NCBI GenBank assembly: GCA_023382455.1
Contig: JAHDVX010000026.1
Span: 1 to 47,587, forward strand
Direction of reading: 5' to 3'
DNA: 47,587 nt
Source: Flavobacteriales bacterium
GTDB taxonomy: Bacteria; Bacteroidota; Bacteroidia; Flavobacteriales_F; PHOS-HE28
This document shows, one piece after another, positions 28,966 through 39,117 of the stretch (the stretch's first letter is position 1; each line of letters opens with the position of its first letter). The notes under the pieces are model-generated. The model was not told the origin of the DNA and did not search any database. It saw nothing but the letters and a program-made list of their open reading frames with translations. Position numbers and translations under genes: made by a program.

Positions 28966-29481
28966 TTATTGCGCAATGCGCCCGTATTCACCACCATGGC
29001 GCCGGATCACCCGTTCGTAGTAGCCGCGTTGCCAAATGGTGCCGCCCGATCGGCCCAATGCGGTGTTGATCCGTTTGGTCGCCACCGATTTGAATGCGCC
29101 GATGATGGCGCCCAATGATCCGCGTTGGGGGCCATTCGGCCTGGCACGGGAGGCATCCGGGGCACCTGTAGGGTCGACCCATTGGGTCGACGGTACAGGT
29201 GCAGATTGTGCATGCGGTGCCAGAATGATGATCGCATGCAAATGATCGGGCATGATCTGCGTTTGATCCAGCCGCGCATGCGCGAAATGGTCCGGGATCG
29301 CACGCCAGCATTTATCTACAATGCAGCCTGCGTCGTTCAGATCCATCCGAGCATCCGTTCCAGTTCCTACAATACGCCCGAACGATTCCTGCCGCTGCAC
29401 GGTACACAACGTCACGAAAAACGCACCCTGGGTGTAGTCACGGCCCGCCAGGCGAATGTGTTTGTGGAAATGTGGGGGCAT
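28966..29481 (-). CDS. REP-associated tyrosine transposase (RAYT, Y1 family)
   Basis: 171 residues. IS200-like HUH fold with HUH motif HLH (His80-Leu-His82 in MPDHLHAIIIL) and the catalytic Tyr in WQRGYYERVIR (154/155). The helix block GSLGAIIGAFKSVATKRIN is typical of RAYT proteins, which are usually single-copy and linked to short palindromes (REPs) rather than forming a full insertion sequence. A 41-base palindrome is embedded in frame between the two blocks and supplies residues 94-107, and a near-identical copy sits 15 bases upstream of the ATG. The catalytic residues are present, so the enzyme could be active. Confidence 0.92.
   Translation of the reverse strand: MPPHFHKHIRLAGRDYTQGAFFVTLCTVQRQESFGRIVGTGTDARMDLNDAGCIVDKCWRAIPDHFAHARLDQTQIMPDHLHAIIILAPHAQSAPVPSTQWVDPTGAPDASRARPNGPQRGSLGAIIGAFKSVATKRINTALGRSGGTIWQRGYYERVIRRHGGEYGRIAQ
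29162..29202. repeat. REP-type palindrome inside the RAYT coding sequence
   Basis: Core GTCGACCCA (29173-29181), one central T, then TGGGTCGAC (29183-29191), a perfect 9-bp inverted repeat. After a 2-base mismatch on each side the arms continue with GCACCTGTA (29162-29170) and TACAGGTGC (29194-29202), again perfectly complementary. The whole 41 bases is read through in frame as a Pro/Thr/Gly-rich loop. Confidence 0.9.
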
Positions 29482-29572: not shown

Positions 29573-32833
<3,261 letters not shown>

Positions 32834-32911
32834 GTCGGCAAAGGTCGGCGGAATCGGCCTTTCCCGCTGGGTGCTGCCTACTGGACGATCGTGGCCCGCC
32901 CGAATTGAAGA

Positions 32912-32946
32912 TAAATTTGTCCGAAATACGATTGCTGCTACATTTG
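32912..32946 (+). promoter_or_regulatory. Two -7-type promoter elements before the Rrf2 gene
   Basis: TAAATTTG (32912-32919) and TACATTTG (32939-32946) both match TAnnTTTG exactly. The first leaves a leader of about 30 bases before the GTG at 32954; the second would give an almost leaderless mRNA. Two promoters, or one promoter and an operator half, are possible. Confidence 0.6.
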
Positions 32947-32953
32947 GCCCATC

Positions 32954-33388
32954 GTGTTCTCCAAGACCTGTGAATATGCGTTCCGGGCCGTGGCGGCAGT
33001 TGCCCAAGCCTCGGCCAACGGTGTGCGCCTTACGCTACCGGTGATCGCGGAGATGACAGGCACCCCGCAGGCCTTCATGGGCAAGATCATGCAGGACCTG
33101 GTGAAGGCCCGCATCATACGCTCCTACCGTGGGCCGAGCGGCGGGTTCGACCTGCCTATGGCCAACGCGGCCAAAGTGAATCTGCGCATGGTGATGGATG
33201 CGTTGGGCGGCGGCATGGACAACACGTTGTGCGTGATGGGCATCGGTGAATGCAACAGCGGGAAGCCCTGCCCGATGCACAACGATTTCGTGGAGGTCAG
33301 GAAGGATATTTCCCGGATCCTGGCCAACACGTATGTGGACCGTTTGGCCAAGGAACTGAATACGGGAGCAACGGACTTGAAGAAATGA
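32954..33388 (+). CDS. Rrf2-family regulator with three-cysteine cluster motif
   Basis: 144 residues from a GTG start. Winged-helix DNA-binding domain ([20 protein letters not shown], then [13 protein letters not shown], the Rrf2 wing). Cysteines 93, 100 and 106 (C-x6-C-x5-C) lie where IscR and NsrR hold an Fe-S cluster, so it may sense oxygen, nitric oxide or Fe-S status. It overlaps the start of the cbb3 oxidase gene by 4 bases (ATGA) and is the first gene of that operon, so it likely regulates respiration and itself. The exact signal is inference. Confidence 0.92.
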
Positions 33389-35175
33389 GCATGATGTGTA
33401 CCCCAAGGATGACCGGGACGATGGCCGGTGCGGCCAAGGCCGTGTTGGTGGCATTTGCAACAGTCACGGCCCACGGGGCCATGGCGCAAGGCACCGCCCC
33501 ACCAGGGTGGTGGAGCAGCCCGGGCATCATCGGTACCATGGTGCTGCTGGGTATCGTGCTGTTCGTGGCGGCCCTGATCATCACGGCGCGGGTGAGCTCC
33601 ATGATCAAATCGATGAATGGCCTGAACAGTGCCCAGCCGGAAGCCGGGCCGGATCCGGACGGCGGACACCAGCCCGAGTACCGGCTCAAGGGTGACGAAC
33701 TCGGCGGATCAGCACCGGCGCAGGATGCCAAGCAGCTGGTGATGAGGGCCACCAGCGAGCCCGGCAATCCGCTGGTGGACGAGAAGATCTATTCGCGCAC
33801 CCGGCTGGACGTGCCCCAGGATCTGCGGAAACTGGTGATCTGGTTCCTCGGTGCCTCGGCGTTCTGGCTGGTGTTCGGCACCCTCGTGGGTGAATACCTG
33901 GGGCTGAAGTTCGTGTGGCCGGACATGGACCATGTGAGCTGGCTCTCTTTCGGCCGCTTGCGGCCGGTGCACACCAACACCGTTTTCTGGGGCTGGTCAT
34001 CCATGGCGATGATCGGCCTGGGCTACTTCGTGGTGGCGCGCACGTCCGCCACACGGATCTACAGTTACCGGTGGGCCTGGTGGAGCTTCTGGCTGATCAA
34101 TGCGGCGATCACCCTCGGCAATATCTGCCTGATGGCCGGGATCAATAACGGAGGCGGCGAATACCGTGAGTACATCTGGCCGGTGATGCTGCTCTTCGCC
34201 TTGGGCCTGATCCTCACCTTCCGGAATTTCTACGCCACCGTGAAGCGGCGCAAGATCGCGGAGATCTACGTGAGCAACTGGTATCTCTTGGCATCCCTGC
34301 TCTGGACCCTGGTGGTGGCCACCATCGGCTATCTGCCGTGGTACCAGGAAGGATTGGGTGAAACGGTGATCCAAGGCTACTATATGCACATGGGTGTGGG
34401 CATCTGGTTCATGACCTTCACCCTGGGCCTGATCTACTACTACCTGCCCTCCGCGCTCAACAAGCCCATCTATTCCTACTCCCTGGGCGTGCTCGCCTTC
34501 TGGACCCAGGTGCTCTTCTACACCCTGATCGGCACCCACCACTTCATCTTCGCACCGCTGCCGTGGTGGCTGCAGACCGTGGCCATCGTATTCAGCGTGG
34601 GCATGTTCATCCCGGTCTTCGCCGGTACCGCCAACTTCCTGATGACCATGCGCGGCAGCTGGAGCGCCATCGGCAAAAGCTATGTCCTGCCGTTCTTCCT
34701 GGTGGGGGTGGTGTACTACTGCGTGGGCAGCTCGCAAGGCAGTTTCCAGGCCATGCGCTTCACCAACCATATCTGGCATTTCACCGATTTCAACGTGGCC
34801 CACTCGCACATGACGATGTACGGCATCGTGGCCTTCATCCTCTGGGCCTGCATCTATGCGATCGTGCCCAAGATCACCGGCCGGGAACCCGCCCAGCTGC
34901 TCGTGGGTGCCCATTTCTGGCTTGCGTTCATCGGGGTGTTCGCCTACACCGTGTCCCTTATGGCGGGCGGCACGGTGAAAGGGTGGGCCTGGATCCAGGG
35001 CGTACCCTTCATCGAGACCGTGATCGAGACGCGCGGCTACTGGACCTGGAGGGCCATCGGCGGCTCGCTGATGTTCATCTCGCACCTGATCTTCGTCTGG
35101 AATTTCGCCACCATGGTGCGAAGCCCGCGTGCCGCCGCCCGGGAAGTGTTGGCCGTTGAACCCGTAGCTGCTTGA
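33385..35175 (+). CDS. ccoN: cbb3-type cytochrome c oxidase subunit I, N-terminally extended
   Basis: 596 residues from the ATG that overlaps the rrf2 stop. Heme-copper oxidase with low-spin heme His196 (RPVHTNTVFWGW), CuB ligands His335 (YMHMGVG) and His385-His386, the C-family active-site Tyr379 (FYTLIGTHH), and heme ligands His473/His475 (NVAHSHMTMYG). Tyr379 argues for an oxidase rather than a NorB-type reductase. Residues 1-130 are an extension: signal-like segment, one membrane helix (about 48-68) and a Pro/Gly/Asp-rich linker, not found in standard CcoN. It reduces oxygen at high affinity and pumps protons. Confidence 0.92.
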   Translation: MSMMCTPRMTGTMAGAAKAVLVAFATVTAHGAMAQGTAPPGWWSSPGIIGTMVLLGIVLFVAALIITARVSSMIKSMNGLNSAQPEAGPDPDGGHQPEYRLKGDELGGSAPAQDAKQLVMRATSEPGNPLVDEKIYSRTRLDVPQDLRKLVIWFLGASAFWLVFGTLVGEYLGLKFVWPDMDHVSWLSFGRLRPVHTNTVFWGWSSMAMIGLGYFVVARTSATRIYSYRWAWWSFWLINAAITLGNICLMAGINNGGGEYREYIWPVMLLFALGLILTFRNFYATVKRRKIAEIYVSNWYLLASLLWTLVVATIGYLPWYQEGLGETVIQGYYMHMGVGIWFMTFTLGLIYYYLPSALNKPIYSYSLGVLAFWTQVLFYTLIGTHHFIFAPLPWWLQTVAIVFSVGMFIPVFAGTANFLMTMRGSWSAIGKSYVLPFFLVGVVYYCVGSSQGSFQAMRFTNHIWHFTDFNVAHSHMTMYGIVAFILWACIYAIVPKITGREPAQLLVGAHFWLAFIGVFAYTVSLMAGGTVKGWAWIQGVPFIETVIETRGYWTWRAIGGSLMFISHLIFVWNFATMVRSPRAAAREVLAVEPVAA

Positions 35176-35178
35176 GCG

Positions 35179-36207
35179 ATGATCAATTTCCACAAAGACC
35201 ACGCGAACCTGGTGAATGTCGCATTCGTGGTGTTCGCCCTGCTGAGCACCGGCATCGCCGTGGCGCCGGCCCTTACCTTGACCGAGACCAACGCACCCTT
35301 GCCGGATATGCCGGTGATGACCGCCCAGGAGCGTAGGGGGCTCGAGGTGTACGTGAACGAGGGATGCATGGGCTGCCATACCCAGCAGGTGCGCAACATC
35401 GAGATGGACAAGACCTGGGGCTCCAGGCCTTCCATCCCGGCGGACTACTACTACAGCAAGCAACGCCTGAATGTCTGGCAACAATCCCCGTCGGTGCTCG
35501 GCAGCGAGCGCACCGGACCGGACCTGACCAACGTGGGGGTGCGGCAGGCCAGTTCACAGTGGCAATACCTGCACCTGTACAATCCGCGCCTGGTGGTCAA
35601 GGGCTCCATCATGCCCCGCTACGGCTGGTTGTTCCATGAGGTGGATTCAGCGGACGTGAAACCCGGCGACGTGGTGTTGCCCATCCCGGCGGACAAGCTG
35701 CCGGATCCCGGCCGCAAAGTGGTGGCCTCCGCCAAGGCCCAGGACCTGGTGGCCTACCTGCTCTCCTTGAAGCAGGCGCCGCTGCCGTCCGGTGTACAGG
35801 CGGATGCATTCCTGCGTACGCCGGGTGCGGGCGGGGAGAAAGTTGCCGCGGCCGCAGGCGAGGCCCCTGCCGTGGACGGCGCCGCCGTGTTCTCGCAGGT
35901 CTGTGCGGCTTGCCACCAGCAGGATGCGAAAGGCCTGCCCGGGGCTTTCCCGGCGTTGGCCGGCAGTTCCGTGGTGAACCAGGAGGATCCCACCCAGATG
36001 ATCGATATCGTGCTCGGCGGGTACAACGCCCGGGCCAGCGAGGGCTATGGCCCCATGCCGCCACAGGCCGAGGTGCTTACCGATGAACAGATCGTGGCGG
36101 TGGTGAACCATGTGCGCTCCAACTTCGGAAACAACGCACCGCCCGCCAAGATTGAGACCGTGAAGGCTGAACGCGCGGAGATCGCGCCACAAACCATGCT
36201 GCCCTGA
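35179..36207 (+). CDS. ccoO: CcoO-type cytochrome c subunit fused to a second cytochrome c domain
   Basis: 342 residues. One N-terminal membrane helix (about 10-33), then a CcoO-like monoheme domain with CxxCH at C63-C66-H67 (EGCMGCHTQQVR) and ERTGPDLTNVG, then a Pro/Ala linker and a second class I domain with C242-x2-C245-H246 (CAACHQQDAKGLPG). Normal cbb3 has separate CcoO and diheme CcoP; here the second domain could replace part of CcoP. It donates electrons to CcoN. It follows ccoN by 3 bases and its TGA overlaps the next ATG. Confidence 0.93.
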   Translation: MINFHKDHANLVNVAFVVFALLSTGIAVAPALTLTETNAPLPDMPVMTAQERRGLEVYVNEGCMGCHTQQVRNIEMDKTWGSRPSIPADYYYSKQRLNVWQQSPSVLGSERTGPDLTNVGVRQASSQWQYLHLYNPRLVVKGSIMPRYGWLFHEVDSADVKPGDVVLPIPADKLPDPGRKVVASAKAQDLVAYLLSLKQAPLPSGVQADAFLRTPGAGGEKVAAAAGEAPAVDGAAVFSQVCAACHQQDAKGLPGAFPALAGSSVVNQEDPTQMIDIVLGGYNARASEGYGPMPPQAEVLTDEQIVAVVNHVRSNFGNNAPPAKIETVKAERAEIAPQTMLP

Positions 36208-36470
36208 TGAGAAAGCTACTTTTCCTGCTCCTGGTCTTGGTGGCCGTGCTCCCGGCTTGGGCATGCCCGGCCTGCCAGAAACAGCAGCCCGCCATCCTGA
36301 AGGGGATCACCCACGGTACAGGCCCCCAAAGTGCCTGGGATATGCCGATCATCATCGCCTCGGCGCTGATCGTGCTGGTGACACTGGTCTACGCGGTCAA
36401 GTTCCTGTTCTGGCCCAAGGAGGCCGGCGAGCAGCATATCAAACGGTCCATCCTGGACAATACATTCTGA
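36207..36470 (+). CDS. Small two-helix membrane protein of the oxidase operon
   Basis: 87 residues. The first helix is signal-like (1-19), followed by CPACQKQQP (Cys20, Cys23) facing the periplasm if the topology is as expected, and a second helix (about 46-69). The CxxC could be a thiol or metal site, for example in copper or heme delivery to the oxidase, or the protein may be a small subunit in the place of CcoQ. That is inference from position. Its ATG shares one base with the TGA of the fused cytochrome gene. Confidence 0.75.
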   Translation: MRKLLFLLLVLVAVLPAWACPACQKQQPAILKGITHGTGPQSAWDMPIIIASALIVLVTLVYAVKFLFWPKEAGEQHIKRSILDNTF

Positions 36471-36474
36471 GGTC

Positions 36475-36885
36475 ATGGCCACCGAACGCTCAGTAAAGCT
36501 TTTCCTTGACGATGAGGAGGTGCCGTTCGCGGAATACGCGCCGCCGGTGAAGTTCCTCTTTGACACCACCAAGCTGCCCGACGGACCGCATACCCTGAGG
36601 ATCGTGGCGCGGAGCACCAGCGGCGTGGAAGGCGTGCGCACCATCCCGTTCGAGGTGCGCAACGGCCCCGCCATCACCGTGCTGGGCCTGAAGCCCAACG
36701 AAGTGCTGCAGGACCATGTGCCCATCACGGTGAATGCATACGGCAGCGAGCGCAGCGACCGGTTCATGATCACCGGCTCGGAAACACCCAAGGCCATCCC
36801 CGCCTGGGTTTGGGCCCTACTGATCGCCTTCGTGGGGTTTGCCGCGTTCTACTTCACGCTGTATTGGGAGCCCGTTCAACTCTGA
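36475..36885 (+). CDS. Tail-anchored protein with Ig-like domain, oxidase operon
   Basis: 136 residues. A beta-sandwich-like domain (1-85; LPDGPHTLRIVARSTSGVEG, then RTIPFEVRNGP) is followed by a linker and one C-terminal membrane helix (about 110-130). It has no signal peptide, so the soluble part may be cytosolic, or it may be translocated by the oxidase assembly. The gene is 4 bases after the small two-helix gene and ends the operon. I do not recognise the family; a role in oxidase assembly or stability is inferred only from context. Confidence 0.7.
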   Translation: MATERSVKLFLDDEEVPFAEYAPPVKFLFDTTKLPDGPHTLRIVARSTSGVEGVRTIPFEVRNGPAITVLGLKPNEVLQDHVPITVNAYGSERSDRFMITGSETPKAIPAWVWALLIAFVGFAAFYFTLYWEPVQL

Positions 36886-36960: not shown

Positions 36961-37431
36961 ATGAACATCGCACGCAACTCCGTGGTCTCCTTCCACTACA
37001 CGCTCACCAACGACGAGGGTGAGGTGCTCGACAGCTCCAAGGGCCACGAGGCCTTCACCTACCTGCAAGGCAGCCAGATGATCGTGCCGGGGCTGGAGGC
37101 GCAGATGGAAGGCAAGGCCAAGGGCGACAAGTTCAAGGCCATGGTGGCCCCGGGCGATGCCTACGGCGAGTTCAACAAGGAGCTGCTGCAACGCGTGCCG
37201 CTGGACCGCTTCGGCGGCCAACAGGTGGAAGTGGGCATGCAGTTCCAGGCCGGGGAGCACAGCGTGGTGACCGTGGAGGAAGTGACGGACAAGGACGTGC
37301 TGGTGAACGGCAATCATCCCTTGGCGGGCGTGCGGCTCACCTTCGATGTGGAGGTGACCGATGTGCGCCCGGCCACGGCCGATGAGGTGGCCCATGGCCA
37401 CGTGCACGGCCCGGGCGGGCATCACCACTGA
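36961..37431 (+). CDS. slyD: FKBP-type peptidyl-prolyl isomerase SlyD
   Basis: 156 residues. FKBP domain with inserted-in-flap (IF) chaperone domain: VVSFHYTLTNDEGEVLDSS, then GLEAQMEGKAKGDKF, and the IF region about 70-125. The C-terminal tail ends HGHVHGPGGHHH, His-rich and metal-binding, as in SlyD proteins involved in nickel handling. The cytosolic protein folds and isomerises prolyl bonds. It ends 21 bases before the stop of the convergent multicopper oxidase gene. Confidence 0.95.
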   Translation: MNIARNSVVSFHYTLTNDEGEVLDSSKGHEAFTYLQGSQMIVPGLEAQMEGKAKGDKFKAMVAPGDAYGEFNKELLQRVPLDRFGGQQVEVGMQFQAGEHSVVTVEEVTDKDVLVNGNHPLAGVRLTFDVEVTDVRPATADEVAHGHVHGPGGHHH

Positions 37432-37452: not shown

Positions 37453-39117
37453 CTACTCGCGGATCACCGTGGTCCGTGCGGTATGCCCGTTGCCGGAAAC
37501 ACGCAGCAGGTAAGCCCCGGCGGGCAGGTCGCTGAGGTCCATGGCGGCTTCCTTGGACGCGACACCTTCCCAATTCCTCACGCGGCAGCCTTGCAAGGTG
37601 AAGAGTTCAGCTTGGCGGAACGGCTGTTCGGCACGGATGGAAATGAGCGACACGGCCGGGGAGGGAAACACTCGGAGCGGTTGGTCCGCCTGCATGCCGG
37701 GTGCCGAGGTGGTGACGTCGGTCACGATGTACTGGAGCATCATCATGTTGTCCTCGTGCATCAGGTTGTGGCAGTGGTACATGAAGGGCCAGCCGTTGGT
37801 GGGTTCATCGAAGCGCATGATCACGCGCGCGCTGGAGCCGGCATCCAGCAGCACCACGTCCTTGGCGCCGCGCTCCCAGGCGGGGGGTGATTGTCCGTCG
37901 CGGTCCAGGATGAAGAACGATCCGCCGTGGATGTGCATCGGGTGCGCCATGTTGGAGAAGTTCTGGATGTTCCAGATCTCGGTGCTGCCCAGGAGTACCG
38001 TGTCGTTCACCACGTCCATGTCGAACTGCACGCCGTTGATGAAGAACATGCCCATGCTGCCCACCATGCCTGTGCCGGTGAGCAGCTTGGTGCGCGTGCG
38101 CACGGCGCTGCCTTCGTCATAGGGGATCACCGGGACCAGCGCGTTGGGGATGGCGGTCACCGGATCGGCCGTGGGGGCGCCCACACGGATGCGCAGCACC
38201 GGGAAGTCGACACCGTTCAGGATGCTGGACTCCATCATCATGTTGTTCGATCCGGGCACGGTAACCGGCAGTTCGCTGCCGTAGCTCATCAGCAGCAGGC
38301 TGTCGCCCTCCATGCCGGTGAGGTCCAGCAGCACCTCGGCGCGCTCGCCGTTTCCCAGCCAGAGCCGTTGCATGGCCACGGGCGCGGAAAGCAGGCCGCC
38401 ATCCCCGGCGATCATCCGGAATTGGCGGCCGTCCTCGAAGCCCAAGGCGTAGATGCGCGAGTTGGAGCCGTTGAGCAGCCGCAGCCGCACCACCTGCGCG
38501 GGGCATTCCAGGAAGGGCCTCGGTGTACCGTTCACCAGCACGGAATCCCCGTAGGGCCCCAGGAAGAAATTGCCGCCGGGCAGGAACCTGCGGTCCTGCA
38601 CCACCACCGGGAAATCATCGATGCCGTAAGTGCGCGGCAGGTCGATGGCCGCCTCGGCGGCATCCTTCACCAGCAGCATGCCTGCCACTCCCTGGGTGGC
38701 CTGGAACGCGGTGAGCATGTGCGGGTGCGGGTGGTACCAGTAGGTGCCCGCCGGGTTCTTCACCTTGTACTTCACCTCCCAGGTTTCGCCCGGCTCCACC
38801 TCGCGCGGCGGGCCGCCGTCCATTTCGCCGGGCACGGCCAGGCCGTGCCAGTGCATGCTGGTCACCTGGGCCAGTTCGTTGTGGATGCGGAAGTGTGCAG
38901 TGTCCCCTTGGTGCAGGATGAGCGTGGGCCCCAGGTATGGGCCGTTCACCCCGTACGTGTTGGTGTTGATGCCGGGGTAGAACTGGTGGACATGCTCATC
39001 CACCGTCAGGTCGAAGGTGTCCAGGTCCAGCGCCGGGGGGATGGCCATGGGGTTCAGGGCCTGGGCCGCGGCAAAGGACGGTGCCACGATCAGGGCGATG
39101 ACAAGGAAGCGGTGCAT
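37453..39117 (-). CDS. Multicopper oxidase with T9SS sorting domain
   Basis: 554 residues. Signal peptide 1-19. Three cupredoxin domains with the copper motifs HWHG (89-92), HPHPH (129-133), HPMHIHG, and HCHNLMHEDNMM (about 440-452), so the T1 and trinuclear sites look complete. The Met-rich stretches (SNNMMMESS, NMMMLQ) and the spore-coat/CueO-like layout suggest a bilirubin-oxidase- or CueO-like enzyme. The last 80 residues (VFPSPAVSLISIRAEQ, then LPAGAYLLRV) are a T9SS sorting domain, so it should end up at the cell surface or outside. Confidence 0.93.
   Translation of the reverse strand: MHRFLVIALIVAPSFAAAQALNPMAIPPALDLDTFDLTVDEHVHQFYPGINTNTYGVNGPYLGPTLILHQGDTAHFRIHNELAQVTSMHWHGLAVPGEMDGGPPREVEPGETWEVKYKVKNPAGTYWYHPHPHMLTAFQATQGVAGMLLVKDAAEAAIDLPRTYGIDDFPVVVQDRRFLPGGNFFLGPYGDSVLVNGTPRPFLECPAQVVRLRLLNGSNSRIYALGFEDGRQFRMIAGDGGLLSAPVAMQRLWLGNGERAEVLLDLTGMEGDSLLLMSYGSELPVTVPGSNNMMMESSILNGVDFPVLRIRVGAPTADPVTAIPNALVPVIPYDEGSAVRTRTKLLTGTGMVGSMGMFFINGVQFDMDVVNDTVLLGSTEIWNIQNFSNMAHPMHIHGGSFFILDRDGQSPPAWERGAKDVVLLDAGSSARVIMRFDEPTNGWPFMYHCHNLMHEDNMMMLQYIVTDVTTSAPGMQADQPLRVFPSPAVSLISIRAEQPFRQAELFTLQGCRVRNWEGVASKEAAMDLSDLPAGAYLLRVSGNGHTARTTVIRE

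Follow-up and report, generated by a model that had tools for sequence, protein, structure and literature searches.

The closest described relatives of the locus treated here are the cbb3 oxidases encoded by ccoNO(Q)P operons. According to PMC5492636, authentic cbb3 enzymes have a mandatory glutamate in the active centre, and PMC8780969 states that the cbb3 oxidase of P. stutzeri reduces nitric oxide (NO) to nitrous oxide (N2O), adding that NO reduction by bacterial heme-copper oxidases likely matters little unless NO reductases (NORs) are absent. We analysed a contig of a Flavobacteriales bacterium (JAHDVX010000026.1; 47,587 nucleotides, hereafter the window), in which five same-strand genes at 32954-36885 encode an Rrf2-family regulator, subunits I and II of a C-family heme-copper oxidoreductase, and two small proteins of 87 and 136 amino acids (aa). 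The operon shares with cbb3 oxidases the subunit I fold, the heme/CuB histidines, the cross-link tyrosine, a FixO subunit and an E-x5-P motif like that of the subunit III anchor. It differs from them in carrying Gln323 and Gly240, in its low scores on the ccoN and ccoO models, in a diheme subunit II, in a presumed subunit III made of an immunoglobulin-like (Ig-like) domain plus anchor, and in forming its own clade. The first-pass annotation had noticed a layout unlike the standard ccoNOQP operon; the layout does differ and is conserved, but the operon is a distinct clade outside authentic cbb3 and not a rearranged ccoNOQP.

The placement follows from subunit I, whose residues 149-561 are covered by the COX1 domain (PF00115, E 5e-79) and which has the heme/CuB histidines and helix VII tyrosine that broadly characterize C-family heme-copper oxidoreductases. 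Its score of 247 bits lies below the ccoN cut-off of 583.15 (TIGR00780); the subunit I of a relative with the short form described below (locus L037) reaches 243.5 bits, and the CcoNO protein of the window's own genome 648.6. In a tree that used 25 of 50 family rows, with long branches flagged and with the cNOR row L076 present in two copies, of which one wrongly bears the label of group Q, the family forms one clade (support 100/100). Its sister (99/99) is a group that carries glutamine at position 323 and includes Azoarcus sp. KH32C AZKH_RS24725-24715 (L072); authentic Glu-type cbb3 oxidases form a separate clade (100/100), and a branch of length 4.15 sets off the NORs. The Azoarcus group has a CcoP-like cytochrome c with E-x5-P, but it differs from the family in its mono-heme subunit II, its separate cytochrome c and the lack of NO-related neighbours (0/8 loci). 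With the nitric oxide reductases cNOR and qNOR the family shares the superfamily and, judging from a NOR locus of Thermus, some of the neighbouring genes, whereas it lacks their FeB glutamate, has the tyrosine and is separated from them by that very long branch. No paper in the open-access literature searched was recognised as describing the family, which is not a claim that it is absent from print; PMC5492636 mentions an 'unknown group' from the work of Muntyan et al. 2015, which is only a lead to a possible match with the family.

The active site combines strict conservation with a few uniform replacements. In an alignment of 49 family rows, read in P. stutzeri numbering (two contigs enter twice, as L033/L049 and L041/L050, and the partial L029, the frame-broken L040 and the duplicate L003 are left out), the heme/CuB histidines H60, H207, H257, H258, H345 and H347 are kept throughout, as are Y251, Y317, S236, N289 and the acidic pair E122/E125; Y237 and T293 are kept in 48 rows. 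All 49 rows have glutamine for E323, a position that is glutamate in 11/11 canonical-group rows and that we take to be the mandatory glutamate meant in PMC5492636, and all have glycine for S240; the pair W203-W204 is Gly-Tyr or Gly-Phe in the family. Where cNOR and qNOR have the HLWVE motif with the FeB glutamate, the family has an HMGVG or HQGVG-type motif and keeps the tyrosine. Glutamine at position 323 is common to three other Gln-type groups and is therefore not specific to an NO context. Such cbb3-like groups without Glu323 were also seen at L055-L071, L072 and L073, some of them in denitrifier-like genomes, and one Gln-type subunit I lies without annotation on the pSymA record of Sinorhizobium meliloti Rm41. 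On two plasmid records (L088, L089), NorB-type genes with HLWVE beside nitrite reductase genes are annotated as 'cbb3-type cytochrome c oxidase subunit I', so this label alone cannot separate oxidases from NORs.

With subunit I as query, 38 loci were found in genome contigs, mostly of Bacteroidota, and some in metagenome-assembled genomes labelled Ignavibacteriota, Nitrospirota and Deinococcota, labels that may be wrong. Together with 12 loci from a phylum sample of 395 genomes and the window itself they make 51 loci, 49 of them distinct since two contigs were counted twice. The family occurs in 13 of the 395 genomes at an identity of at least 52%, the next matches dropping to 37%, and in 15 of the 45 genomes of the window's genus. 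Comparison of gene order across these loci, as the first-pass annotation had proposed, gave the succession subunit I, subunit II, 87-aa protein, 136-aa protein in 47/51 (45/49 distinct), a conservation that exceeds chance. In the four exceptions the contig ends at subunit I (L004, L028) or one gene was not recognised, namely subunit II in L011 and the 136-aa protein in L130.

Two forms of the operon can be told apart. The long form, to which the window belongs, comprises 33 loci with an extra N-terminal helix on subunit I: in the window, 187 residues (counted from the ATG at 33385) precede the FGRLRP motif, against about 60-71 in short-form relatives. The extension contains one strong hydrophobic stretch, in agreement with the extra membrane helix described at first pass, and would consist of a signal-like stretch and one additional helix. 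In all 30 long-form loci that reach the downstream genes, the 87-aa protein has a CxxC motif and the 136-aa protein is free of heme motifs. The short form comprises 15 loci without the extension; none of the 15 has CxxC in the 87-aa protein, and 13 have one heme motif in a counterpart of the 136-aa protein that is longer (264-291 aa among those aligned), L036 and the frame-broken L040 being the exceptions. L012 and L029 are unreadable at the N-terminus, and L130 has CxxC without the extension. The split therefore points to three linked changes: the extension helix was gained, the CxxC was gained and the heme domain of the third subunit was lost.

Subunit II joins a FixO domain (PF02433, E 1.1e-28) to a cytochrome c domain (PF00034, E 4e-16) and has two CxxCH motifs. 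It reaches 80.1 bits on the ccoO model, below the cut-off of 200.65 for the mono-heme protein, and its best NCBIfam match is the bifunctional cbb3 subunit II/cytochrome c protein PRK14486/NF011054 (E 1.1e-32), with which it shares the CcoO-cytochrome c fusion while scoring far below the cut-off (113.7 against 447 bits). A sequencing artefact was rejected as the source of the fusion, the two motifs being present in 48/48 loci where subunit II was found. The additional domain had initially been read as taking the place of CcoP. The domain is real, but short-form relatives carry both this domain and a CcoP-like heme protein, so it is no stand-in for CcoP, whose anchor appears to survive as the 136-aa protein.

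That protein is modelled as beta strands followed by a single C-terminal helix (pLDDT 72, pTM 0.41). A glutamate just before the helix (residue 103 in the window) is invariant in 31/31 aligned members, with a proline six residues further on in 30/31, and the same E-x5-P spacing marks the invariant anchor residues of 10/10 CcoP-type proteins encoded in canonical or Gln-type operons. Profile comparison (hhalign) with CcoP gave 99.3% (E 9e-21) when the heme-bearing members were included; the hemeless members matched the CcoP anchors alone at 30% (E 5.5e-4), in the same register. This glutamate of subunit III is reported, for V. cholerae cbb3, to be where protons enter the channel in C-family oxidases. 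The 136-aa protein thus looks like a reduced CcoP, a subunit that would have been lessened and not simply replaced: the window's version has the anchor with its glutamate and no heme domain, and one heme is retained in 13/15 short-form loci. Charges on either side of the helix point to a cytoplasmic location of the Ig-like part. A periplasmic, FixH-like protein was considered and rejected, since the helix comes after the Ig-like part in the chain and the protein shows no signal stretch. The 87-aa protein has a signal-like stretch with CPAC (the CxxC) directly after it, one helix and a conserved tail, PxExxxxHIK; it may be called CcoQ-like by position and topology only. Both small proteins had been listed as unrecognised, and the profile scan of the window's proteins indeed placed neither in a family above its cut-off.

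The gene neighbourhood connects the family with NO. Neighbour profiles were built from the 38 loci (set A), and the 12 loci of the phylum sample (set B) served as an independent test, flanks being shorter at contig ends. Within about 8 kb, we found RIC/ScdA proteins (ScdA_N plus Hemerythrin domains) at 12/38 set A and 7/12 set B loci, truncated globins at 14/38 and 6/12 (the globin model lies just under its Pfam cut-off, with 20.9 of 21 bits), hemerythrins at 10/38 and 2/12, and Rrf2 regulators at 17/38 and 5/12. The 20 canonical CcoNO loci yielded no RIC/ScdA, globin or hemerythrin and one Rrf2, and the eight sister-group loci none of the four. At least one of RIC/ScdA, globin or hemerythrin stands beside 20/38 set A loci. 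After removal of L125 and L126, which repeat L033 and L041, the same holds for 9/10 set B loci (L122 through a weak match) versus 0/20 canonical ones (Fisher p 7e-7, uncorrected for kinship). The operon of L010 and L030 immediately follows a nosD-nosZ cluster. NosZ is encoded in 11/13 family genomes of the phylum sample versus 118/382 others (p 1.3e-4, again uncorrected for kinship) and in 22/34 genomes represented in the first set of loci (20 above the cut-off; two of these genomes recur among the 13).

The regulator shows the three conserved cysteines of NsrR/IscR-like Fe-S Rrf2 proteins, a C-x6-C-x5-C pattern present in 25/26 matches (the 26th is a 35-residue fragment), and is likely to bind an Fe-S cluster; it scores below the IscR and NsrR equivalog cut-offs, and we claim no named regulator. 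Ahead of its gene, an inverted repeat at 32907-32925 differs by 3 mismatches from TCGGAYAAATTTGTCCGAA and is followed by TACATTTG at 32939-32946, which resembles the -7 promoter element of Bacteroidota. Several relatives have near-perfect copies of the repeat 5' of Rrf2. Two loci, L016 and L010, contain one more Rrf2 gene of this type, and the L016 copy has its own perfect CGGACAAATTTGTCCG repeat. The overlap of the regulator and oxidase genes reported at first pass exists, although it amounts to merely 4 bases (ATGA, 33385-33388) when subunit I starts at 33385, and is ordinary translational coupling; the longest open reading frame of subunit I begins at 33250, and the longer overlap that results is purely mechanical.

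Features of the operon in the window (all on the + strand)
Feature	Position	Strand	Basis
Regulatory stretch	32907..32946	+	imperfect inverted repeat, then TACATTTG
Rrf2-family regulator, 144 aa	32954..33388	+	PF02082 E 2.7e-20; C-x6-C-x5-C
Subunit I, C-family heme-copper oxidoreductase, 596 aa	33385..35175	+	PF00115 E 5e-79; N-terminal extension
Subunit II, FixO/CcoO domain + C-terminal cytochrome c domain, 342 aa	35179..36207	+	PF02433, PF00034
87-aa protein, at CcoQ's place	36207..36470	+	family alignment, conserved position
136-aa protein, Ig-like domain + CcoP-anchor-like helix	36475..36885	+	family and CcoP alignments, hhalign, structure model

We favour, with a little better than even confidence, a C-family terminal reductase that would be used under NO-producing, low-O2 conditions and would mainly reduce O2; NO would be tolerated and probably reduced as a side activity. 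O2 is the presumed main substrate in view of the conserved His-Tyr pair and the conservation of most residues of the proton channel; the link to NO comes from the gene neighbours. As deduced from these comparisons, the two c hemes of subunit II would take up the electrons and pass them to subunit I with its heme/CuB site. The 136-aa protein, as a CcoP remnant with the Ig-like domain before its membrane helix, would provide in its conserved glutamate the opening of the proton channel, the remnant of the Bacteroidia-type lineage having no heme domain, and the 87-aa protein would occupy the place of CcoQ. The enzyme may thus be deployed together with NO-handling genes in bacteria that often reduce N2O. 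Absence of NORs, the condition named in PMC8780969, applies to the window's own genome as far as cNOR and qNOR are concerned, which supports the reading as an NO-linked terminal reductase.

Several observations weigh against this interpretation. The window's own 20-kb surroundings contain none of these NO genes, only the Rrf2 regulator, and Crp/Fnr genes are not enriched near the family loci. A search of the own genome for the inverted repeat with up to 3 mismatches returned a single site, that of the operon itself, and hence no wider regulon; in nine other genomes the sites that could be placed were family loci, and counts in several were near those of a reversed-pattern control. Within the window's genus, where NosZ occurs in 43/45 genomes and the family in 15/45, the NosZ link is not visible, and across the 13 family genomes neither NirK (4/13) nor NOR (3/13) shows a significant link. 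The anchor-only profile match of the 136-aa protein is modest, too.

The chief rival, which we consider possible but rather unlikely, is a genuine respiratory NO reductase that has kept the CuB/tyrosine site and fills the gap between NirK and NosZ where cNOR and qNOR are missing. The own genome invites this idea, since it encodes NosZ (C2:155249-157063) and NirK (C2:159790-160761) 2.7 kb apart and has no cNOR/qNOR match, B-family-type NORs not having been searched by name. Furthermore, 8/13 family genomes have NosZ without cNOR/qNOR, the operon directly adjoins the nosD-nosZ clusters mentioned above, and Rrf2, ScdA_N and cupin neighbours also stand beside the Thermus NOR. Yet Tyr251 is present in all rows and the FeB glutamate in none, unlike in the cNOR rows, and family and cNOR/qNOR do not exclude each other significantly, either in the phylum (3/13 versus 47/382, p 0.22) or in the genus (1/15 versus 5/30, p 0.65). 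The combination of NirK and NosZ without NOR was rejected as evidence on its own: 20/28 NirK- and NosZ-encoding genomes of the sample have no cNOR/qNOR, and the family occurs in only 3 of those 20.

A 425-aa membrane protein is encoded between NosZ and NirK of the own genome (C2:157820-159094; L098:11821-13095, +). It has no Pfam or NCBIfam match and was missed by the PF00115 search, while its model (pLDDT 91) is predicted to adopt the heme-copper oxidase subunit I fold, with VIA-align Z values of 33.2 to cbb3 8smr_E and 33.0 to cNOR 4xyd_A. It keeps H55-x-H57, H186 and H322 and lacks the HH pair of CuB. Homologues (L139-L160, L010:4707-5939, L030:5819-7027) occur in 22/73 genomes examined, in several of them near NOR or NosZ by their coordinates. 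This protein is a further candidate for NO chemistry, and with it the argument from a missing NOR loses weight for the operon of the window.

A more specific version of the NO reductase reading appears unlikely to us as well, somewhat more so than the general one. Here, the tyrosine-bearing, CuB-type C-family enzyme would be the respiratory NO reductase of those denitrifiers among the Bacteroidota (and relatives) whose genomes encode NirK and NosZ and no known NOR, with proton uptake via the free-standing CcoP anchor; the Bacteroidia-type lineage would have lost the third c heme, while its 87-aa protein gained a periplasmic CxxC...His site and its subunit I the extra helix, which possibly replace an electron or copper entry point.

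Doubtful, in turn, is a plain second isoform of a low-oxygen cytochrome oxidase, whose NO-related neighbours would reflect shared microaerobic regulation. The conserved O2-type active site and the nearly NO-gene-free surroundings of the window are compatible with it, and the own genome has three PF00115 (COX1-family) matches: besides the window's subunit I it encodes CcoNO and another COX1, one of the matches lying on contig C6. This isoform reading is hard to reconcile with the RIC/ScdA, globin and hemerythrin genes that accompany nine of the ten test loci and not one canonical CcoNO. The first-pass annotation had held that a separate, complete ccoP/ccoQ set would contradict its view of the layout; contig C22 does contain a complete-looking operon of fused CcoNO, CcoP (114.8 against a cut-off of 179.95) and CcoG, in which CcoQ was not identified, but by its position this set belongs to another oxidase. 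Least probable, and quite improbable in our view, is that the 136-aa and 87-aa proteins are assembly or metal-delivery factors and not subunits, with the CcoP match a convergence of one short helix: the low anchor-only probability, the lack of any match at E 0.001 or better for the 136-aa model in a fold search of the PDB, and the CxxC and single His conserved in aligned long-form 87-aa proteins, as in metal-binding or thiol proteins, would suit it, yet the short-form counterpart of the 136-aa protein runs on into a cytochrome c domain, which is the domain order of CcoP.

Upstream of the operon lies a divergent methylmalonyl-CoA mutase gene (29573-32917, -), and further out a gene (28966-29481, -) that we take, from the look of its sequence, to encode a REP-associated (Y1) transposase. 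On the 3' side follow a gene for an FKBP/SlyD-like isomerase with a His-rich tail (36961-37431, +), found in the same place in L005, L006 and L013, and, just past it, one for a CueO-like multicopper oxidase (37453-39117, -), in which a type IX secretion sorting tail is weakly recognisable.

If our reading is true, genomes that are scored as having a 'second cbb3' in fact encode oxidases of a separate family linked to the handling of NO, and predictions of low-oxygen respiration and N2O production made from sequence would change. The split CcoP offers a natural test of what this subunit is for, as its glutamate anchor persists in 31/31 aligned members while the heme domain has been dispensable in one lineage. 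The question of the missing NOR in Bacteroidota with NirK and NosZ would also become testable.

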